DNA of 64,000 nt from Sphingopyxis sp. JAI128. GTDB lineage: Bacteria; Pseudomonadota; Alphaproteobacteria; Sphingomonadales; Sphingomonadaceae. Location of the stretch: NCBI RefSeq assembly GCF_014207235.1, contig NZ_JACHDA010000010.1:62001-126000 (forward strand), given 5' to 3'. The translations under genes were made by a program, and so were the position numbers. Below, piece after piece: positions 7,421 to 33,731 of this stretch (position 1 is its first letter; each line of letters opens with the position of its first letter). The notes under the pieces are model-generated. The model saw only the letters and a list, made by a program, of their open reading frames with translations. It was not told the DNA's origin and made no database searches.

Positions 7421-8461
7421 CTATTTGGCCACCGCTGGTTTGACGGGTGCCGGCTTGGCCTCCGCCGGCGGTGGCGCATCCTCGATAACCAGTTCGGTGC
7501 GCAGGGTCACGCGTTTCGCGGCGGGCTTGCCGTCGCTGCCGACGAATGGCGCGTAACGCCCCTGCGCCGGGAACATGTCGCACGGCGTCATCCCGTTCGG
7601 CATCGAACCGAATTCCCCTGTTTTCGAAAAACGGCAATCGGCGACGCGACCATCGGCACCCAACAGCACCGTCACGGTCGCGCTCCCCGGCTTGCCCATC
7701 GGGAAGCTGCGCTCGCGCTGGACCGCCACGCCGCCGGGGCCTTCCCCGGCCTCTTCCGGCAACGTCCATCGGAATGTCGTCGCAACGACCGAGCGAACGG
7801 GCTTTCCGTCGCTGTCGAGCGCGGGCGAGAATTTTCCGTCGCTGCGCATCAGCGCGCAGGCCGCCTCGTCGAGCGCGAACGAAAGGCTGCTCTCGTTGAC
7901 CTTGCAGCTAGTGACCTGCCCCGCGGCGTCGATGCCGAGTTCCATATGGACAACCCCCTCCTCGCCCGCGGCGCGCGCTGCGGCCGGGTAATGGGCGGCA
8001 GGGTCGATCCGGGTCAGCGCATCGTCCGGCCTGGGTCCGCGCGGCCAGCTCTCCTGCACCGCATCGAGCGCGAAGCCAGCGACTGCGATCGAATCGTCAT
8101 ATTCGGGGATCTGCCAGCGAATGCGGTTGCTGTATGTCCCGCCGACCGCCTTGCCGGCCTTGTCACGGCCGGGCGTGAAGCGCGCGCGCTCCATGATCAG
8201 CCGACAGGTGGTCGCATCGAGGTCGTCATGACCGCTCGGCGATATGATCTCGCATTGGGTGGGCAGGCCGTCGGCGCCGACCGTCAATTTGAACCCCGTC
8301 GTGCCCTCGCGCTCCTCGCGCATCGCGCTGACCGGATAATCGTCATTGGTCGCCCAACTGCCCGGATTGGTCGCCGGCATCATCGGTTCGCCGCCCTCCT
8401 CGACAACGACCTGCGTCACAAGCTCGCCGGGCGCGGCCAGCGCCAAAAATATCGCAAACAT
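7421..8461 (-). CDS. TonB C-terminal-like energy transducer family protein
   Basis: A 346-residue protein with a short hydrophobic N-terminus (MFAIFLALAAPGEL). It contains at least three related segments of the TonB C-terminal type: a Gly-x-Asp-Gly strand (VGADGLPTQCEI, IDAAGQVTSCKV, LGADGRVADCRF), then a Cys/Ala-Cys helix and an RxF-P turn (RARFTPGRDKAGKA, DGKFSPALDSDGKP, QGRYAPFVGSDGKP). Each segment carries a conserved Cys pair that could form a disulfide in the periplasm. It lacks the proline-rich spanning region of real TonB, so a periplasmic protein of unknown function is more likely than a TonB transducer. Confidence 0.75.
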   Translation of the reverse strand: MFAIFLALAAPGELVTQVVVEEGGEPMMPATNPGSWATNDDYPVSAMREEREGTTGFKLTVGADGLPTQCEIISPSGHDDLDATTCRLIMERARFTPGRDKAGKAVGGTYSNRIRWQIPEYDDSIAVAGFALDAVQESWPRGPRPDDALTRIDPAAHYPAAARAAGEEGVVHMELGIDAAGQVTSCKVNESSLSFALDEAACALMRSDGKFSPALDSDGKPVRSVVATTFRWTLPEEAGEGPGGVAVQRERSFPMGKPGSATVTVLLGADGRVADCRFSKTGEFGSMPNGMTPCDMFPAQGRYAPFVGSDGKPAAKRVTLRTELVIEDAPPPAEAKPAPVKPAVAK

Positions 8462-26142: not shown

Positions 26143-26757
26143 TTACGCCGGATAGGTCCAGGTTCCCTCGCGCGCGAAATTTTCCGCCGCGAAATCCCAG
26201 TTCAGCAGTTCGTCGACCACCGCGTCGACATAAGCCGGGCGCAGATTCTTGCGGTCGATGTAATAAGCATGTTCCCACACGTCGATCACCAGCAGGGGCT
26301 TGATGCCCGCCGTCAGCTCGGTGCCCGCGTCGTGCGTATCGGTGACCGACAGCGTGCCGTCACGCGCGACAAGCCAGGCCCAGCCCGACGCGAAATGATT
26401 GACGGCGGTTTCCTTCAATTTCTTCTTTAGTTCGTCGAGCGAACCGAAATCGCGGTCGATCGCCGCGGCGAGATCATCGGCGGGCGCGGTCTTCGTGGGG
26501 CTCAAGCTGTTCCAGTAAAAGGCGTGGTTCCACGACTGGGCGCTATTGTTGAACAGACCCTTGTTGCCCGACCCTTCGGCGTGGTGGATGATTTCTTCGA
26601 GGCTCTTACCGGCCAGGTCGGTGCCTTCGATCGCGGCGTTGGTCTTGTCGACATAGGCCTTGTGGTGCTTGCCATGGTGCGTCGCCAGCGTGTCGGCCGA
26701 AATATGCGGCTCGAGCGCATCCTGGGCATAGGGCAGCGGCGGGAAAGCGATCGTCAT
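26143..26757 (-). CDS. sodB: Superoxide dismutase, Fe/Mn family (probably Fe)
   Basis: A 204-residue dismutase that converts superoxide to oxygen and peroxide. Metal ligands are His27, His78 (NHAFYW), Asp159 and His163 (DVWEHAYY). Gln74 in NNSAQSWNH fits Fe-type enzymes such as E. coli SodB; Mn types carry the Gln elsewhere. ATG 26757 is preferred, with a GGAG-like site upstream. Cytoplasmic, standalone. Confidence 0.96.
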   Translation of the reverse strand: MTIAFPPLPYAQDALEPHISADTLATHHGKHHKAYVDKTNAAIEGTDLAGKSLEEIIHHAEGSGNKGLFNNSAQSWNHAFYWNSLSPTKTAPADDLAAAIDRDFGSLDELKKKLKETAVNHFASGWAWLVARDGTLSVTDTHDAGTELTAGIKPLLVIDVWEHAYYIDRKNLRPAYVDAVVDELLNWDFAAENFAREGTWTYPA

Positions 26758-26844
26758 GGCAGTCTCCTTTTTTGGTGTCGGGGGACTAACTCGGTATCTT
26801 GCCCGCAAGTTGCAACCCCGTGACGGCAATTTTCCTTTGGTTAA

Positions 26845-26866
26845 GCCTTCCTCTGAAGAGGAGGCG
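26845..26866 (-). terminator. Possible terminator of the DNA-repair operon
   Basis: Just past the ligase stop, CCTCCTCTTC pairs with GAGGAAGG on the minus strand in a small stem-loop, followed by CTTAACC. T-run is weak, hence low confidence. Confidence 0.3.
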
Positions 26867-26868
26867 GC

Positions 26869-28437
26869 CTAGGTCACCATCCCCCGCAGAGTCGCGATTC
26901 GGTCGGCTTCTTCGGCAGGCTTGTCGCGGCGGATACGCGAAATGCGCGGGAAGCGCATCGCGAGCCCCGACTTGTGGCGCTTGCTGCTGTGGATCGAATC
27001 GAAGGCGACTTCGAGCACGAGCGACTTTTCGACCTCGCGCACCGGGCCGAAGCGGTTCAGCGTGTTGTCGCGCACGAATTTGTCAAGCCATTTCAATTCC
27101 GCGTCGGTGAAGCCCGAATAGGCTTTACCCACGGGAAGAAGCTCGCCCGCGTCGGACCAGCAGCCGAAGGTATAATCCGAATAGAAGCTCGCGCGGCGGC
27201 CGTTGCCGCGCTGCGCGTACATCATCACGCAATCGGCGGTGAGCGGATCGCGCTTCCATTTATACCACAGCCCGGCGCGCCGTCCCGCGACATAGGGCGC
27301 GTCGCGGCGCTTGAGCATCACCCCCTCGATCGCGGCGTCGCGCGCGCCGGCGCGACGCTTGGCGAGGTCGTCGAAATCGGTGGGGTCGATCACCTGCGAC
27401 AGGTCGAAATGACTCGCGGCGAGGCGTGGGACGAAGGCCTCCAGCCGCCGCCGCCGCTCGGTCCACGGCAGGGCGCGCAAATCGTCGCCATCGAGCGCGA
27501 GCAGATCGTACACGCGGACAAACGCCGGATAATCGGCGAGCATCTTCTTCGACACCGTTTTGCGGCCGAGCCTTTGCTGGAGCGCATTGAAGCTTGCGGC
27601 CTCGCCCCCCTGCACCTCGCCGCGCACGAGCAGTTCGCCGTCGATCACCGCATCCTGGTCGAAAGCCGCGACCAGTTCGGGAAAGGCGCCGCCGATCTCC
27701 TCACCGCCGCGGCTGTAGATGCGCGTCTCGCCGCCCCCATGCACGATCTGGACACGGATACCGTCCCATTTCCATTCGGCGGCATAGTCGGCGAGATCGA
27801 CGCTCTCCTCCTCCAGCGGGTGCGCGAGCATGAAGGGGCGGAAGAAAGCGACGTCGGCCAGGTCGGGGCGCTCCGCCCTCCCCTCGCCCCAAGCGAACAG
27901 CGGCGCATAGGGCGGCGCGATCGCGTGCCACAGCTCCTCGACATCGTCGACCGGCACGTCGAACGCCTGCGCAAACGCCTGTTTCGCGAGCCGCGCCGAC
28001 ACGCCGACGCGCATGCCGCCAAGCGCGAGCTTGAGCAGCGCGTAGCGCCCGTCGGCATCGAGCTGGTCGAGTAAGGACGCGACGACCGCGGGCGCATCGC
28101 TGCGGCTGGTCGCTGCCAGCGCATCAACCGCCTCCGCCACGCTGAGCTCCGCCTTCGTTCCCGGCGCATCTGGCCAGAGCAGCGCCGCCGTCTCGGCCGT
28201 GTCGCCGACGAAATGCCGCGACAGGCGGAACAATTCCTCGTCGATGCGGGTCGCGAGCAAGGCCCGCACCGTCCCCGCCTTTACCGCCGGAAAATCGAGG
28301 CTCTCGGTCAGCGCCGCGATCGCCCAGCCGCGGTCGGGGTCCGGCGTGTGGCGGAGATAATCGACGATCAGCGCGAGCTTGCTGTTGCGCGAGCGCGTAT
28401 AGATCAGCCGGTCGATCAGGGCGGCGAAGCGCTTCAC
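26869..28437 (-). CDS. ATP-dependent DNA ligase (Lig-type)
   Basis: A 522-residue ligase starting with GTG at 28437; the GTG and the exonuclease stop share bases (GTGA). N-terminal DNA-binding helical domain (1-200), then the nucleotidyltransferase motif EWKWDGIR with adenylated Lys223, the motif III ARIYSRGGEE region (RIYSRGG) and motif V WYKWKRD, then an OB fold. It seals nicks using ATP, unlike the NAD-dependent LigA. End of the repair operon. Confidence 0.95.
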   Translation of the reverse strand: MKRFAALIDRLIYTRSRNSKLALIVDYLRHTPDPDRGWAIAALTESLDFPAVKAGTVRALLATRIDEELFRLSRHFVGDTAETAALLWPDAPGTKAELSVAEAVDALAATSRSDAPAVVASLLDQLDADGRYALLKLALGGMRVGVSARLAKQAFAQAFDVPVDDVEELWHAIAPPYAPLFAWGEGRAERPDLADVAFFRPFMLAHPLEEESVDLADYAAEWKWDGIRVQIVHGGGETRIYSRGGEEIGGAFPELVAAFDQDAVIDGELLVRGEVQGGEAASFNALQQRLGRKTVSKKMLADYPAFVRVYDLLALDGDDLRALPWTERRRRLEAFVPRLAASHFDLSQVIDPTDFDDLAKRRAGARDAAIEGVMLKRRDAPYVAGRRAGLWYKWKRDPLTADCVMMYAQRGNGRRASFYSDYTFGCWSDAGELLPVGKAYSGFTDAELKWLDKFVRDNTLNRFGPVREVEKSLVLEVAFDSIHSSKRHKSGLAMRFPRISRIRRDKPAEEADRIATLRGMVT

Positions 28438-29450
28438 GCCTCTTCTTCCTCCAGATCGCGGCCGACAAGGTGCAGCGCGCGTGCCTTGCGCTGCGTGAGT
28501 TCGCACCAGCGTAGCAGGCCGTCCTCGCTGCCATGGGTGATCCACGTCTCGCCGGGGTTCACCTCCGCAATCGTCGCGGTGAGTTCGTCCCAGTCGGCAT
28601 GGTCCGAAATGACGAGCGGCAGTTCGACCATCCGCTGCCGCGCGCGCTGACGCACGCGCATCCAGCCCGACGCCATCGCCGTCACCGGATCGGGCAGCCG
28701 CCGCGACCAGCGATCATTCAGCGCCGACGGAGGTGCGAGCACGATCTGCCCCGCCATCGCGGCCTTGTCGGTTTCGCTGACAAGGCGGAGTTCGCCAAGA
28801 TCAACGCCGTGCAGCGCATAGAGCGCGCACATTTTTTCGAGCGCGCCGTGGATATAGATCGGCGCGTCCCACCCCGCCGCCCGCAGTTCGGCGATCACGC
28901 GCTGCGCCTTGCCGAGCGCATAGGCGCCGACGAGCACGCTGCGATCGGGCTCGGCGCGCACCGCGCCGATCAGCTTGGCGATCTCGTCGCGGGTGGGCGG
29001 GTGGCGGAACACCGGCAGGCCGAAGGTCGCCTCGGTGATAAAGATATCGCACGGAACAACCTCGAAACGCGCGCAGGTCGGGTCGACGCGGCGTTTGTAA
29101 TCGCCGGTGACGACGATCCGCTCTCCCGCATATTCCATCAATATCTGCGCGCTGCCGAGGACATGGCCGGCGGGATGGAAGCTGAAGCGCACGCCGCCGC
29201 GTTCGAACCCGTCGCCATAGCCATATGCCTGATTATGGCTCGCCTCGGCATCGACGCCGTAGCGCAGCGCCATGATCGCGAGCGTCTCGGACGTCGCGAA
29301 CACCGCGCCGTGACCGCTGCGCGCATGATCGGCATGGCCGTGCGTCACCGCGGCGCGCGGGGCGGGGCGCGACGGGTCGATCCACAGGTCGGCGGGCTTG
29401 ACATATATGCCGCCGGGGTGCGGCTCGATCCAGGTTTTGGCCTTTGCCAT
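28434..29450 (-). CDS. Ligase-associated DNA exonuclease, MBL fold
   Basis: A 338-residue metallo-beta-lactamase/beta-CASP nuclease-like protein. Zinc motif THGHADHARSGHG is clear, followed by GHVLGSAQILM, VTGDYKRR and DIFITEATFG, with THGSEDGL near the end. Such proteins accompany ATP-dependent ligases and process DNA ends. ATG 29450 overlaps the UdgX stop by one base. No activity proven; the family is annotated from context. Confidence 0.92.
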   Translation of the reverse strand: MAKAKTWIEPHPGGIYVKPADLWIDPSRPAPRAAVTHGHADHARSGHGAVFATSETLAIMALRYGVDAEASHNQAYGYGDGFERGGVRFSFHPAGHVLGSAQILMEYAGERIVVTGDYKRRVDPTCARFEVVPCDIFITEATFGLPVFRHPPTRDEIAKLIGAVRAEPDRSVLVGAYALGKAQRVIAELRAAGWDAPIYIHGALEKMCALYALHGVDLGELRLVSETDKAAMAGQIVLAPPSALNDRWSRRLPDPVTAMASGWMRVRQRARQRMVELPLVISDHADWDELTATIAEVNPGETWITHGSEDGLLRWCELTQRKARALHLVGRDLEEEEA

Positions 29451-30877
29451 CAGGCGGCAAGTTTCCGTGCGCGGAGCAGGTCGGCGACGAACATCGCCCT
29501 TTCCTCGGCGGCCCGCGCGCGGTCCGGCAGCCGGAGCAGGAAGGAAGGGTGGATCGTCGCGATCAGCTTCGTCCCGCCTTCCAGCTCGTGCACCGCACCG
29601 CGCATCGATTTGATGCTCGCGCTTTTTCCGGTGACCCCGCGCAAGGCACTTGCTCCCAGCGTCACGATCAGTCCGGGCTGGACGAAGACGCGTTCCTTGT
29701 CGAGCCACCAGCGGCAGATGTCGATCTCGGCGTTCGTCGGATTCTGATGAAGCCGCCTTTTGCCGCGCGGCTCGAACTTGAAATGCTTGACCGCATTGGT
29801 GAGGAACAGCTGCGTCCGGTCGAGTCCTGCCTCTTCCAGCGCCTCATTCAACACCTGCCCAGCCGGGCCGACGAAGGGGCGTCCCTGCAGATCCTCCTGG
29901 TCGCCCGGCTGCTCGCCGACGAGCATGATGCGCGCCGCTTCCGGCCCCTCGCCCGCCACGCCCTGCGTCGCGTCGCAATAGAGCGGGCAGCGCGTGCAGC
30001 GATCGACCGCCTTCGCCAGTTCGGCCAGCGTCTCGATCTCTTCGCCTCGGGTCAATTCGTCCTGCACACGCGTCCGCCATTTGCCGGTCAATGGGTTCGC
30101 CATCGAAACGGCCTCCGCGCGCATGCGTTCCACCCGCGCCTCGGCGCCCGCGAGCAGTGGCGCGATATCCTGCGCCTCGGGCAGGTTTTTCCAATATTTC
30201 TTCGGCATCTCGGCGCGCATCGCGTCGATCTTCACCCGCGCGGGATTGAAGATCGCGCCATAATAAGTGCGCCACTGATCCTCGACGACGTCGCTATCGG
30301 GCACCTCGTCCTTCGTCCCGCCGGGACCATAGGTCAGCGTTTCATCCTGCCAGATCGCGCGCGCGTCGGGGGTCACGATCGCCCAGTCCATCCCGTAGAA
30401 GCGCCGCTGAAAGAAAGGTGCGGTCAGCCGCAATATGCGGTGTGACGGTTCGAACCACGCCGCGAAACTCTCACGCCCCGGCTCTTCGCCGAGCCGGCGG
30501 AAGCGCACGAAGGCGTGCATCTTGTGCACGTCGCGGCGGATCGCCTTGTCGGCTTTTCGCAGCCAGTCGACGTCGGCGTCGGTCGCGCGCGCAAGCAGGT
30601 TCCGGTCGTGCAGCGCGCGCCACATGATCCGGTAAAGCCGCGCCGGCACCTCTGCATCGCGATGGCAAATCACCCGGTCGGCAATCTCGACCAGCTCGCG
30701 CGGCAGGCTGAGTTGGGCCCCGGGCGCCGCCGCAACCGCATCGCCGAATAGCGACGCGCCCTCTTCGCTCCCGCGCCAGCTCACCTCGTCGGGCGCGACG
30801 CCGCCCGCGAGCAGCCCCCGCGCCGCGCAGCGCCATTCCGCAAAATCACCCGGCGTCTTGAGGACGACTTCCCTCAC
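29450..30877 (-). CDS. UdgX-type uracil-DNA glycosylase with N-terminal DUF4130
   Basis: A 475-residue fusion that begins with GTG at 30877. Residues 1-270 are DUF4130 (LFGDAVAAAPGAQLSLPREL, RRLGEEPGRESFAAWFEP). The C-terminal part is a family-4-like UDG with an iron-sulfur Cys pattern CTRCPLYCDAT, GEQPGDQEDLQGRPFVGPAG, and the R-loop GKRRLHQNPT. The His in KRRLH is the residue that traps uracil covalently in UdgX. It ends AEERAMFVADLLRARKLAA. GTGA overlap with the radical SAM gene. Confidence 0.94.
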   Translation of the reverse strand: MREVVLKTPGDFAEWRCAARGLLAGGVAPDEVSWRGSEEGASLFGDAVAAAPGAQLSLPRELVEIADRVICHRDAEVPARLYRIMWRALHDRNLLARATDADVDWLRKADKAIRRDVHKMHAFVRFRRLGEEPGRESFAAWFEPSHRILRLTAPFFQRRFYGMDWAIVTPDARAIWQDETLTYGPGGTKDEVPDSDVVEDQWRTYYGAIFNPARVKIDAMRAEMPKKYWKNLPEAQDIAPLLAGAEARVERMRAEAVSMANPLTGKWRTRVQDELTRGEEIETLAELAKAVDRCTRCPLYCDATQGVAGEGPEAARIMLVGEQPGDQEDLQGRPFVGPAGQVLNEALEEAGLDRTQLFLTNAVKHFKFEPRGKRRLHQNPTNAEIDICRWWLDKERVFVQPGLIVTLGASALRGVTGKSASIKSMRGAVHELEGGTKLIATIHPSFLLRLPDRARAAEERAMFVADLLRARKLAA

Positions 30878-32124
30878 AGCGCGAGTGCCAACTGTTCAGC
30901 CGGCGGTGCAAAGCGCGCGCGGAGGTCGGCGCTGTCGATCAGCTTGCCCGGCCGCCAGTCGGGGGTGACAATGAAGGGCAAGAGCTTTTTAACCGAAGCC
31001 GTCAGCCTGGCGAGATCGCCCAGCCTGAGCTTCCCCAGCCGCCGAGCCGCAACGATGCGGTCGACCGCGCGCGTACCAAGTCCCGGCACGCGCAGCAGCA
31101 GTTCGCGCGGCGCGCGGTTGATGTCGACCGGAAAAGCCTCGCGCCGTTGGAGCGCCCATGCAAGCTTCGGATCGATCGCGAGGTCGAGCATCCCCCCGCA
31201 TGCGCCTTCCATGATTTCGGCACGCTCGAAGCCATAGAAACGCAGCAGCCAGTCGGCCTGGTACAGCCGGTGCTCGCGCATCAGCGGCGGGCGCACCGGC
31301 GGCAGGTCCTGGCTGGCATCGGGGATCGGGCTGTACGCCGAATAATAGACGCGGCGGAGCCGGTAACCCGAATAGAGATTCGTAGCGGTCTTCAATATAT
31401 CGTCGTCGCGTGCGGCATCCGCCCCGACGATCATCTGCGTCGATTGCCCTGCGGGCGCGAAGCGCGGTGGCGTTGCCTTGCCGATCAACCGACTCTTCGC
31501 GGCCTCGATTGCTTCGGATTCGCCGACGCGCACCGACGCCATCGTCTTGCGGATCGTCTCGGGCTTTTTCTCCGGCGCAAAGCTCGAAAGCCCCGCCTCG
31601 GTCGGCAGCTCGACATTGGTCGACAGGCGATCGGCATATAGCCCCGCGAGCGCGACCAGCGCGGAGTCGGCGCCCGCGATCGTCTTCAGATGGATATAGC
31701 CCTGGAAGCGATGCTCTTCGCGCAATATGCGCGCGACCTCGACCAGCTGCTCCATCGTATAATCCTCGGAGCGGATGATCCCCGACGACAGAAACAGCCC
31801 CTCGATATAATTGCGCTTGTAGAAATCGAGCGTCAGCGCCGCGACCTCCTGCGGACTGAAGCGCGCGCGCTCGACATTGCTCGACGCGCGGTTGATGCAG
31901 AAACGGCAGTCGTAAATGCAAAAATTGGTGAGCAGGATTTTCAGAAGCGAGATGCAGCGGCCGTCGGGCGCATAGCTGTGGCAGATGCCCATGCCCTCGG
32001 TCGAGCCAATGCCCTTCGATCCGACCGCGTCGCGCTTCACGGTGCCCGACGATGCGCAGGAGGCGTCATATTTGGCGGCATCGGCAAGGATCGCCAGCTT
32101 TTCGAGAATCGGTTTCGCAGACAT
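30874..32124 (-). CDS. Putative DNA modification/repair radical SAM protein
   Basis: A 416-residue radical SAM enzyme with the cluster motif CIYDCRFC (Cys69, Cys73, Cys76; CxxxCxxC), FLSSGIIRSEDYTMEQ and a C-terminal helix-hairpin-helix (RVPGLGTRAVDRIVAARRLGKL). It always pairs with DUF4130/UdgX. Reaction and substrate are unknown; the HhH points to DNA. First gene of the operon; a LexA-type box is 19 bp upstream of its start. Confidence 0.93.
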   Translation of the reverse strand: MSAKPILEKLAILADAAKYDASCASSGTVKRDAVGSKGIGSTEGMGICHSYAPDGRCISLLKILLTNFCIYDCRFCINRASSNVERARFSPQEVAALTLDFYKRNYIEGLFLSSGIIRSEDYTMEQLVEVARILREEHRFQGYIHLKTIAGADSALVALAGLYADRLSTNVELPTEAGLSSFAPEKKPETIRKTMASVRVGESEAIEAAKSRLIGKATPPRFAPAGQSTQMIVGADAARDDDILKTATNLYSGYRLRRVYYSAYSPIPDASQDLPPVRPPLMREHRLYQADWLLRFYGFERAEIMEGACGGMLDLAIDPKLAWALQRREAFPVDINRAPRELLLRVPGLGTRAVDRIVAARRLGKLRLGDLARLTASVKKLLPFIVTPDWRPGKLIDSADLRARFAPPAEQLALAL

Positions 32125-32142
32125 GCCGCATGCCTAACACGC

Positions 32143-32157
32143 GAACATATAGAGAAC
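32143..32157 (-). promoter_or_regulatory. LexA (SOS) box upstream of the DNA-repair operon
   Basis: On the minus strand GTTC-TCTATAT-GTTC, exactly the alphaproteobacterial LexA direct repeat GTTC-N7-GTTC, 19-33 bp before the radical SAM start codon. The seven-base spacer is AT-rich as in known boxes. It predicts SOS control of all four genes. Confidence 0.8.
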
Positions 32158-32183
32158 AAATATACTGCGTTAAGTTGCGGGGC

Positions 32184-33731
32184 TTATGCGTCGCGCCACC
32201 GCGCGGGCAGCGCGATATCGACGATCAGCCCGTCTGGTTCCCACCGCCGCTCGATCGTCCCGCCCAGGTTGTTCCGAACGCTGCGTTCCATCAGCAACGT
32301 CCCGAAACTGGTGCGATCGGGCGCGACGACCCCGCGGGCACCCCCGCTCTCGGCCCAGGTCAGCCGGAAGGTGCGGCCTTCGACGCCTTCGGCGTCCTGC
32401 GTCCATGCGATATCGACGCGCCCGTTCTCCCCTGTCAACGCGCCGTGCTTGACGGCATTGGTCGCGAGTTCGTTGAACAGCAGCGCCATCGCGACCAACG
32501 CATTTTCGGGCAGCAACAGGTCGGGGCCCGACCAGCGAACCCGCGGAAAGGCGGCCTCGACCTCGCGCATCAGCGCGTGCATCGATCCGGTCATGAAATT
32601 GGAACCGAGCAGAACGTTCTGCGCGCGATTCAGCGCGTCGAGCCGGCTGTTGATCCGCTCGACATAATCGTCGACATCTTGCGCCGCGTGGCGGGTTAAC
32701 GAGATGATCGCGCTGACGGTGGCGAACAGGTTGCGCATCCGGTGGTGCAATTCGCGCATCAACAGATTGGCATTTTCCTGCCGGCTCTTCTGCTCGGTGA
32801 TATCGATGCAGATTCCGGTCAGCACGGCATCGTCGGCGTTGACGTCCCAGTCGCCGCGGATCCCCAGCCAACGGACGCCGCGCTCGGGATGAACGATCCG
32901 ATGCTCGACCTTGTACGGCGAGCCGTCGGCAACCGATTCGCGCAGCGCGAGCAGCACCGCGTTGCGGTCGTCGGGATGGACGCGGGCGATCGTGTCGTCC
33001 CGCGTCGCGAGCGCGGTCCGGTAGTCGGCGCCCCACAGTTCGGCGACCGCACCGCGCCAATCGACTCCTTGCGTGCGGGCGTCGTATCGCCACGTCGCGA
33101 TCCCCGAAAAATCGAGCGCGCGTTCGAGCGTCCGGCGCGCGTCGTCGCGTTCGGTGCCGATGCGGCGGAGGTCGGCCTCCGCCATGATGATCCCGGCAAA
33201 ATCTTCGAGACGGGCCAGTTCGCCCTCGGTCAGCGCGGCGCGCTCCTCGCGGTCGAGGACGCAGAGGCTGCCGAGGATTTGGCCGTTATAGGCGCGCAGC
33301 GGCACACCGGCATAAAAACGGATGTGGGTGTCGCCGATCACCAGCGGATTTTCGCGCGAGCGCGGATCGGAAAGCGCGTCGGTCACCATCACCGGCGCGT
33401 CCTCGGCAATCACATAGGGACAGAAACTATAGGCGCGCGGCATTTCGCGCGTGTCGATGCCATGCGCCGATTTGAACCATTGGCGGCGGTCATCGACCAG
33501 CGATATCAGCGCGATCGGCACATCGAACAGATCGGCGACCATACGGGTCACGCGATCGAATGCCGGTTCGGCGTCGGTATCCATGATGCGATATTCATGA
33601 AGCGTGTCGAGCCGCAGCCGTTCGGCCTGAGTCGCGGCCTCATCTTCCCCGTCCGCCAAACCCAGTCCCTCACCATCCTTCGATGCGGCGGACGCCGCAT
33701 CGTTCATTTCCCCGGGGCGCTGCTTTGCCAT
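32184..33731 (-). CDS. HWE-type sensor histidine kinase with GAF and PAS domains
   Basis: A 515-residue soluble kinase. A GAF domain (about 55-195; AYSFCPYVIAE, IRFYAGVPLRAYNG) and a PAS domain (205-320; WRYDART, HPDDRNAVLL) precede the kinase. The phospho-acceptor His330 is in ELHHRMRNLF, the HWE/HisKA_2 form, and NELATNAVKHG is the N box. No transmembrane segment. Divergent from phyR, so it probably feeds PhyR. GAF input could bind a small ligand or light signal. Confidence 0.92.
   Translation of the reverse strand: MAKQRPGEMNDAASAASKDGEGLGLADGEDEAATQAERLRLDTLHEYRIMDTDAEPAFDRVTRMVADLFDVPIALISLVDDRRQWFKSAHGIDTREMPRAYSFCPYVIAEDAPVMVTDALSDPRSRENPLVIGDTHIRFYAGVPLRAYNGQILGSLCVLDREERAALTEGELARLEDFAGIIMAEADLRRIGTERDDARRTLERALDFSGIATWRYDARTQGVDWRGAVAELWGADYRTALATRDDTIARVHPDDRNAVLLALRESVADGSPYKVEHRIVHPERGVRWLGIRGDWDVNADDAVLTGICIDITEQKSRQENANLLMRELHHRMRNLFATVSAIISLTRHAAQDVDDYVERINSRLDALNRAQNVLLGSNFMTGSMHALMREVEAAFPRVRWSGPDLLLPENALVAMALLFNELATNAVKHGALTGENGRVDIAWTQDAEGVEGRTFRLTWAESGGARGVVAPDRTSFGTLLMERSVRNNLGGTIERRWEPDGLIVDIALPARWRDA

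Follow-up and report, generated by a model that had tools for sequence, protein, structure and literature searches.

The four-gene locus and its closest described relatives

SOS control has been predicted in Bacteroidetes for a two-gene 'UDG base excision repair' operon (UDG, uracil-DNA glycosylase), COG1573-COG4277, in PMC8565304, the accessible part of which also cites earlier reports of this SOS operon from Alphaproteobacteria (Caulobacter, 2008) and Verrucomicrobia (2016) and names GTTC-N7-GTTC as the motif of Alphaproteobacteria. A Clostridium gene bearing the same name is proposed in PMC3828012 to be under the control of LexA. Here we describe a locus of Sphingopyxis sp. JAI128, located in a 64,000-nucleotide stretch of contig NZ_JACHDA010000010.1 (positions 62,001 to 126,000; hereafter the window), in which a gene pair of this kind, encoding a radical S-adenosylmethionine (SAM) protein and a UdgX-type glycosylase, is followed by a nuclease and a ligase gene. 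In Pseudomonas putida, a 'ligase-associated' cluster consists of Lhr, nuclease, ATP ligase and MPE. Of these, Lhr and MPE are treated in the accessible text of PMC7437997.

We consider it probable, at about 0.7, that the SOS promoter of the radical SAM-UdgX pair captured a second toolkit, so that two modules lie on one LexA-controlled message. The genes and the box ahead of them are as follows (aa, amino acids; bp, base pairs):

32157-32143, minus strand: LexA-type box GTTCTCTATATGTTC, GTTC-N7-GTTC, 18 bp upstream of the first ATG
32124-30874, minus strand: radical SAM protein, TIGR03916 rSAM_link_UDG, 416 aa, ATG start, above the curated cut-off
30877-29450, minus strand: DUF4130-UdgX fusion protein, 475 aa, GTG start, above the curated cut-off
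29450-28434, minus strand: metallo-beta-lactamase-fold (MBL) nuclease, TIGR04122 'ligase-associated DNA damage response exonuclease', 338 aa, ATG start, above the curated cut-off
28437-26869, minus strand: ATP-dependent DNA ligase, TIGR04120 'cisplatin damage response', 522 aa, GTG start, above the curated cut-off

An earlier note on this DNA, made from the sequence alone, had described four genes with overlaps of 1-4 bp, and the open reading frame coordinates agree with it: successive genes overlap by 4, 1 and 4 bp. The exact GTTC-N7-GTTC box that it placed before the first start codon is also there, at a distance of 18 bp and not 19. From the overlaps, the four genes probably form one transcript. 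Promoter-like sites were not found in 26700-32300 (0.9 in shuffles), and the four terminator-like sites of this region compare with 4.1 in shuffles. The nuclease, the ligase and the radical SAM protein contain the motifs HGHADH, KWDG and CX3CX2C, respectively, which we take to be their active-site marks.

Like the COG1573-COG4277 operon, the locus has a UDG gene and its partner under LexA-type control: TIGR03916 and TIGR03914 are above their cut-offs and a box lies ahead, the match to the COG families being one of name, with COG4277 presumably the radical SAM family TIGR03916. However, there are two genes in the known operon, whereas here the message would run on into nuclease and ligase. The relation to the P. 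putida-type cluster is looser. TIGR04122 and TIGR04120 belong to it and TIGR04121 and TIGR04123 are present in the same host genome, but the cluster is split in this host, its four genes do not lie together and the operon is no complete set. No description of the four-gene arrangement was found in a literature search for it or its parts, which was mostly at listing level and covered subscription journals thinly; such gene product names occur in a Sphingomonas paper (PMC9611098). The pair and its control are of a known kind; what is added at the level of this genus is the link to nuclease and ligase, with the switch kept on several branches.

The LexA-type box in the genus and in relatives

GTTCTCTATATGTTC is the sole exact GTTC-N7-GTTC match in the window. 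Since shuffles average 1.67 matches, a single match in 64 kb is at chance level and on its own no evidence; we judge the box real because of its position and its conservation in the genus copies. The radical SAM gene scored above cut-off in 53 of 80 genus genomes. Fifty-four loci were examined, two of which were dropped as the contig piece begins inside the gene, and in all 52 readable copies an exact box was found at -32 to -36 of the radical SAM gene. All eight motif columns are invariant across these 52 boxes, which have 31 different spacers.

The whole host genome contains 111 GTTC-N7-GTTC matches, compared to 51 for the motif read backwards. Forty-five loci were looked at, namely the operon itself, 30 returned by the search and 14 chosen for their spacer, and ten following genes of our choice were scanned. 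Exact boxes precede lexA, recA and nrdA, all above cut-off, uvrA and uvrD/pcrA, both fragments cut by the locus end, and imuA-like and rmuC-like genes, both scoring below cut-off; of the remaining scanned genes two, named in the next paragraph, are above cut-off and one is without a family. A conserved box near the start codon and the same motif before lexA and recA are what characterizes an alphaproteobacterial LexA regulon, and SOS control of the operon is on this sequence basis very likely. The damage-induced control proposed in the earlier note is well supported by conserved boxes in several lineages, but such control of a radical SAM and UDG pair has already been published.

Three exact boxes of the host genome were recorded with their distances. 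One is located 24 bp ahead of a second radical SAM gene, of the PA0069 family (L217, 1211-2296), one 10 bp before a ribonucleotide reductase alpha gene (L219) and one 75 bp before an egtB gene (L221).

For relatives, 120 bp before the radical SAM gene were scanned on either strand for exact GTTC-N7-GTTC. The box was found in 75 of the closest 80 (the named relatives), in 23 of 24 radical SAM loci of a class sample and in 24 of 25 further loci from a phylum search with 84 genomes over the cut-off. Spacers of N6 or N8 were absent from all three sets, and a reordered motif gave 0, 0 and 1 matches, respectively. The five misses among the named relatives comprise three Xanthomonas/Stenotrophomonas loci and two loci in which a match with one mismatch was seen by eye. 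Outside the class, CTGT-N8-ACAG, which we take to be the gamma- and betaproteobacterial LexA motif, occurs within 100 bp in 16 of 20 loci fetched from the 29 genomes listed. Shuffles average 0.024 matches to this motif, the reordered motif gives 0, and the remaining 93,102 bp of these loci contain one match; the 21st non-alphaproteobacterial locus (L297) has neither GTTC-N7-GTTC nor CTGT-N8-ACAG. LexA-type control of the radical SAM-UDG pair, as predicted from these sites, is the rule in the relatives examined, under two different motifs. Since such control seems to be kept under both, the pair must matter during DNA damage.

The possibility that the box is confined to one clade was ruled out, as other relatives carry GAAC-N7-GAAC, the box on the opposite strand. 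The own-strand boxes do cluster on the radical SAM tree: they are present in 15 of 15 rows of one clade (Shimodaira-Hasegawa-like approximate likelihood ratio test 98) and in L241 outside it, an own-strand match at -104 also occurs in L055, which is labelled on the tree as having no box, and further ones were found in loci absent from the tree (L301, L313-L319, L321). Five loci (L056, L071, L074, L326 and L341, from Xanthomonas, Stenotrophomonas and two other genomes), all without both LexA motifs, have an inverted repeat, TCTCA-N5-TGAGA, at -29 of the radical SAM gene. It is perhaps the operator of another lineage.

Separability of the two modules

In the class sample of 385 genomes, 25 had the radical SAM gene and 102 the nuclease gene over cut-off. 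Both were present in 22 of the 25, compared to a nuclease in 80 of the 360 genomes without the radical SAM gene, counts that are uncorrected for ancestry and genome size. The two modules lie side by side only in the host genome among these 22, fragmented assemblies such as G124 and G284 being not fully decidable; in the 21 others they are on different contigs, far apart, or on opposite strands at a distance of 3.3 kb (G410). The co-occurrence fits a loose common toolkit. The nuclease was followed by the ligase in all 30 class loci examined out of the 102 genomes, and an exact box was present within 120 bp in four of these loci, three of them in one genus. In another genus (g124), each of the three genomes seen has the nuclease behind a box of its own, at -28 to -31. 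Judged from the sequences, the nuclease-ligase pair is a separate, mostly boxless module.

Among the 80 named loci, the nuclease follows directly behind the pair in four of five Sphingopyxis loci. Three Paracoccus loci have nuclease and ligase about 6 kb behind the pair on the same strand, and the modules show no linkage in G776, which belongs to another genus. A nuclease-ligase directly adjoining the pair was seen only in Sphingopyxis among the genomes examined. In the comparison of neighbourhoods that the earlier note proposed, the boxed pair is widely conserved, and its direct adjacency to nuclease and ligase was seen in this genus only. The host genes for Lhr (TIGR04121) and MPE (TIGR04123) are close together on contig 3, while the nuclease-ligase is on contig 10; the 10 kb read around Lhr and MPE contained no exact box. 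Between Lhr and MPE in L343 (5410-6504), an open reading frame was noted that by eye resembles an aspartyl protease.

The site in Sphingopyxis is bounded by two neighbouring genes:

32184-33731, minus strand: GAF-PAS-HWE histidine kinase, upstream neighbour, bounds the site on one side in most of the genus loci read
26143-26757, minus strand: superoxide dismutase, downstream neighbour, the other end of the site

The pair followed by nuclease and ligase is found in most genus loci read far enough. In 19 genus genomes the nuclease-ligase occupies the site and the radical SAM gene is absent there. These genomes were placed by the kinase or dismutase neighbour (the kinase side differs in G007, and in G064 the contig ends), and G012, G074 and G079, with the nuclease elsewhere, were left out. 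The box is kept close ahead of the remaining genes in 11 of the 19: in nine it lies at -34 to -72 of the nuclease, and in two it is followed after 18 bp by an intact gene for UdgX only, of 247 and 248 aa. Three have a UdgX that lacks DUF4130, with no exact box close ahead. In the last five, box and pair are both lost, and kinase and nuclease have become direct neighbours. In G007 (L172), there is an exact match at 7636, which either overlaps the UdgX reading frame at its start or lies next to that start; it was judged to be chance. The two stand-alone UdgX genes behind a box (L187, 6987-7733; L190, 1216-1959) are overlapped from behind by the nuclease gene, and by their sequence context they are natural truncations of the operon. 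Five congeners keep UdgX alone at the site, and all five lack DUF4130 along with the radical SAM gene; this joint loss hints at DUF4130 as the closer partner of the radical SAM enzyme. In L174 and L189 (from G012 and G074), no ligase match was found within about 6 kb of the nuclease.

A nuclease tree of 58 rows requires eight changes for the radical SAM gene (present or absent) and five for the state with the box ahead of the nuclease, at least four of these five being forced by starred branches; this is a single-gene tree made by a 'quick' method, with long outgroup branches and with genomes lacking a fetched nuclease sequence omitted. In G079, the outermost genus row of the radical SAM tree, a boxed pair is present at the site, and nuclease and ligase are elsewhere. 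The simplest history would be that the boxed pair came first and the nuclease-ligase joined behind it, and that the pair was deleted later on, often with the switch left in place.

The proposed mechanism builds on the observed gene order, gene overlaps, conservation of the box and separability of the modules. Most likely, LexA bound to the box over the promoter represses one four-gene message and would be released by DNA damage via RecA. Module 1, the radical SAM protein and DUF4130-UdgX, would be a widespread SOS pair of the described kind, in which the radical SAM enzyme, together with DUF4130 and its own helix-hairpin-helix (HhH), would most likely act by radical chemistry on a base that is damaged or modified. 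The UdgX domain would remove uracil and, by analogy with the mycobacterial enzyme, stay bonded to the abasic site. Module 2, nuclease and ligase, would trim and seal DNA ends and could do so independently of module 1. Read-through from the SOS promoter of module 1 into module 2 would then have arisen in this genus.

Several observations weigh against this reading. CTGT-N8-ACAG is missing from 5 of the 21 non-alphaproteobacterial loci, and three Xanthomonas/Stenotrophomonas loci have neither the alphaproteobacterial box nor TTAG-N6-TACTA. One of the nine genomes with a box ahead of the nuclease (G063) has a boxed pair elsewhere in the genome, and the trees are single-gene and 'quick'. In the accessible text of an RNA-seq study of a Sphingopyxis strain with SOS induction (PMC6472365), the words uracil, radical SAM and ligase are absent; its table covers chosen genes, and the strain may or may not carry the operon. 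Further, an exact box close ahead of what is left at the site is absent from 8 of the 19 congeners, and therefore LexA control of the nuclease-ligase is dispensable.

The last point, together with the 26 of 30 class nuclease loci without an exact box, is also what a chance neighbourhood would predict, in which module 2 came to lie downstream by accident and is transcribed only by read-through, without profiting from SOS control. We regard this as improbable, since the box was kept in 11 of the 19 genomes on several branches after the radical SAM gene was lost, and since genus g124 has its own box ahead of the nuclease in all three genomes. Somewhat less improbable, though still unlikely, is one integrated pathway, in which UdgX traps a uracil or abasic site, the radical SAM enzyme processes the lesion, the nuclease excises and the ligase seals. 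The overlapping genes, the common order in the genus, the co-occurrence in 22 of 25 genomes and the loose linkage in Paracoccus leave room for such a joint pathway. The earlier note had gone further and read the operon as a self-contained excision and sealing pathway, which is not supported: the modules are seen adjacent in only 1 of the 22 class genomes having both, 80 class genomes have the nuclease only, the nuclease-ligase persists in 19 congeners at the site where the radical SAM gene is gone, a box is present at only 4 of 30 class nuclease loci, and Lhr and MPE, which usually accompany this nuclease and ligase, are on another contig with no exact box in the 10 kb read.

The probable capture of module 2 by the promoter of module 1 also makes the genus useful for comparison. 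Behind the same box, Sphingopyxis relatives carry the whole operon, UdgX-nuclease-ligase only, or nuclease-ligase only, and this series is a natural experiment on what each part adds and how the parts depend on each other.

The radical SAM protein and its UdgX partner

In the fusion protein, DUF4130 (TIGR03915) spans residues 8-235 and UdgX (TIGR03914) residues 238-468. According to the accessible text of PMC10359453, the hallmarks of UdgX are an R-loop KRRxH with the cross-linking histidine and a motif A, GEQPG. Indeed, the KRRLH loop mentioned in the earlier note is present at residues 373-377, with its histidine in 43 of 43 aligned rows, and GEQPG at residues 321-325, with the glutamine in 42 of 43. 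UDG-fold chains fill the rows shown by a structure search with the model of the fusion, and its UdgX part matches UdgX structures at about 48% identity. The likeness to Mycobacterium smegmatis UdgX thus includes the domain (about 48% identity), the KRRxH loop and GEQPG, but the window protein is fused to DUF4130, and cross-linking would apply here only by analogy.

The radical SAM protein has the CX3CX2C motif (C69/C73/C76) and a predicted barrel fold, the features of the radical SAM superfamily, and matches Pfam PF04055 at 30.0 bits (cut-off 29.5). These three cysteines, and C23, C48 and C57 as well, do not vary in any of the 50 rows of either of two alignments, the second more distant, both including the window protein. 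The AlphaFold2 model has a mean pLDDT (predicted local distance difference test) of 76.9, with low values around residues 21-50; the region of C23, C48 and C57 is modelled with low confidence. Its best matches among the rows shown are lipoyl synthase (Z 17.5, root-mean-square deviation (rmsd) 3.6 over 226 residues) and, nearly tied, HydE (Z 16.4, rmsd 2.7 over 213 residues), which leads in Foldseek. A search of solved structures with the single sequence gave one chance-level match. In lipoyl synthase, an auxiliary cluster is held by cysteines ahead of the triad, and the three extra cysteines together with the predicted barrel suggest that C23, C48 and C57 may likewise hold a second Fe-S cluster. 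The barrels align over 213-231 residues with rmsd 2.6-3.7, but identity is 12-16%, no common substrate is implied, and the C-terminal HhH is outside the aligned part; the fold resemblance is no proof of function.

This HhH, claimed in the earlier note, was matched, but with a score below the family cut-off:

31039-31131, minus strand: residues 332-362 of the radical SAM protein, helix-hairpin-helix, Pfam HHH_3, weak

The Pfam score is 25.0 bits, just under the cut-off of 27, and weak ComEA-like matches were found among solved structures (E 0.015 and 0.018).

As to the activity of the enzyme, the boldest reading, which we hold to be less likely than not, is a DNA-acting radical SAM protein with two Fe-S clusters (at C69/C73/C76 and C23/C48/C57) and a new base chemistry in repair, with DUF4130 as its partner and UdgX as a separable add-on. 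It is rather doubtful that it is a direct-reversal enzyme of the photolyase type, similar to SplB. The predicted fold is closest to lipoyl synthase and HydE, there are six invariant cysteines and not three, and neither structure search has spore photoproduct lyase in the 50 rows that it shows, which does not exclude it. Further, SplB (COG1533) and COG4277 are listed apart, as separate families, in the accessible part of PMC8565304. The six invariant cysteines offer a direct handle on the enzyme through its iron and sulfide content.

Named relatives of 89-95% identity support the assignment to Sphingopyxis. On the radical SAM tree, the rows of this genus fall together with Hyphomonadaceae, Robiginitomaculaceae and Pontivivens and apart from a 13-row clade holding the other sphingomonads. 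This is suggestive only of a possible horizontal transfer of the gene into Sphingopyxis. Of 158 plasmid records with the radical SAM gene, Phaeobacter accounts for 58 and Paracoccus for 15, and therefore the gene travels. With regard to a possible phage origin, one locus in viral contigs matches at 66% identity, with a box on the other strand.

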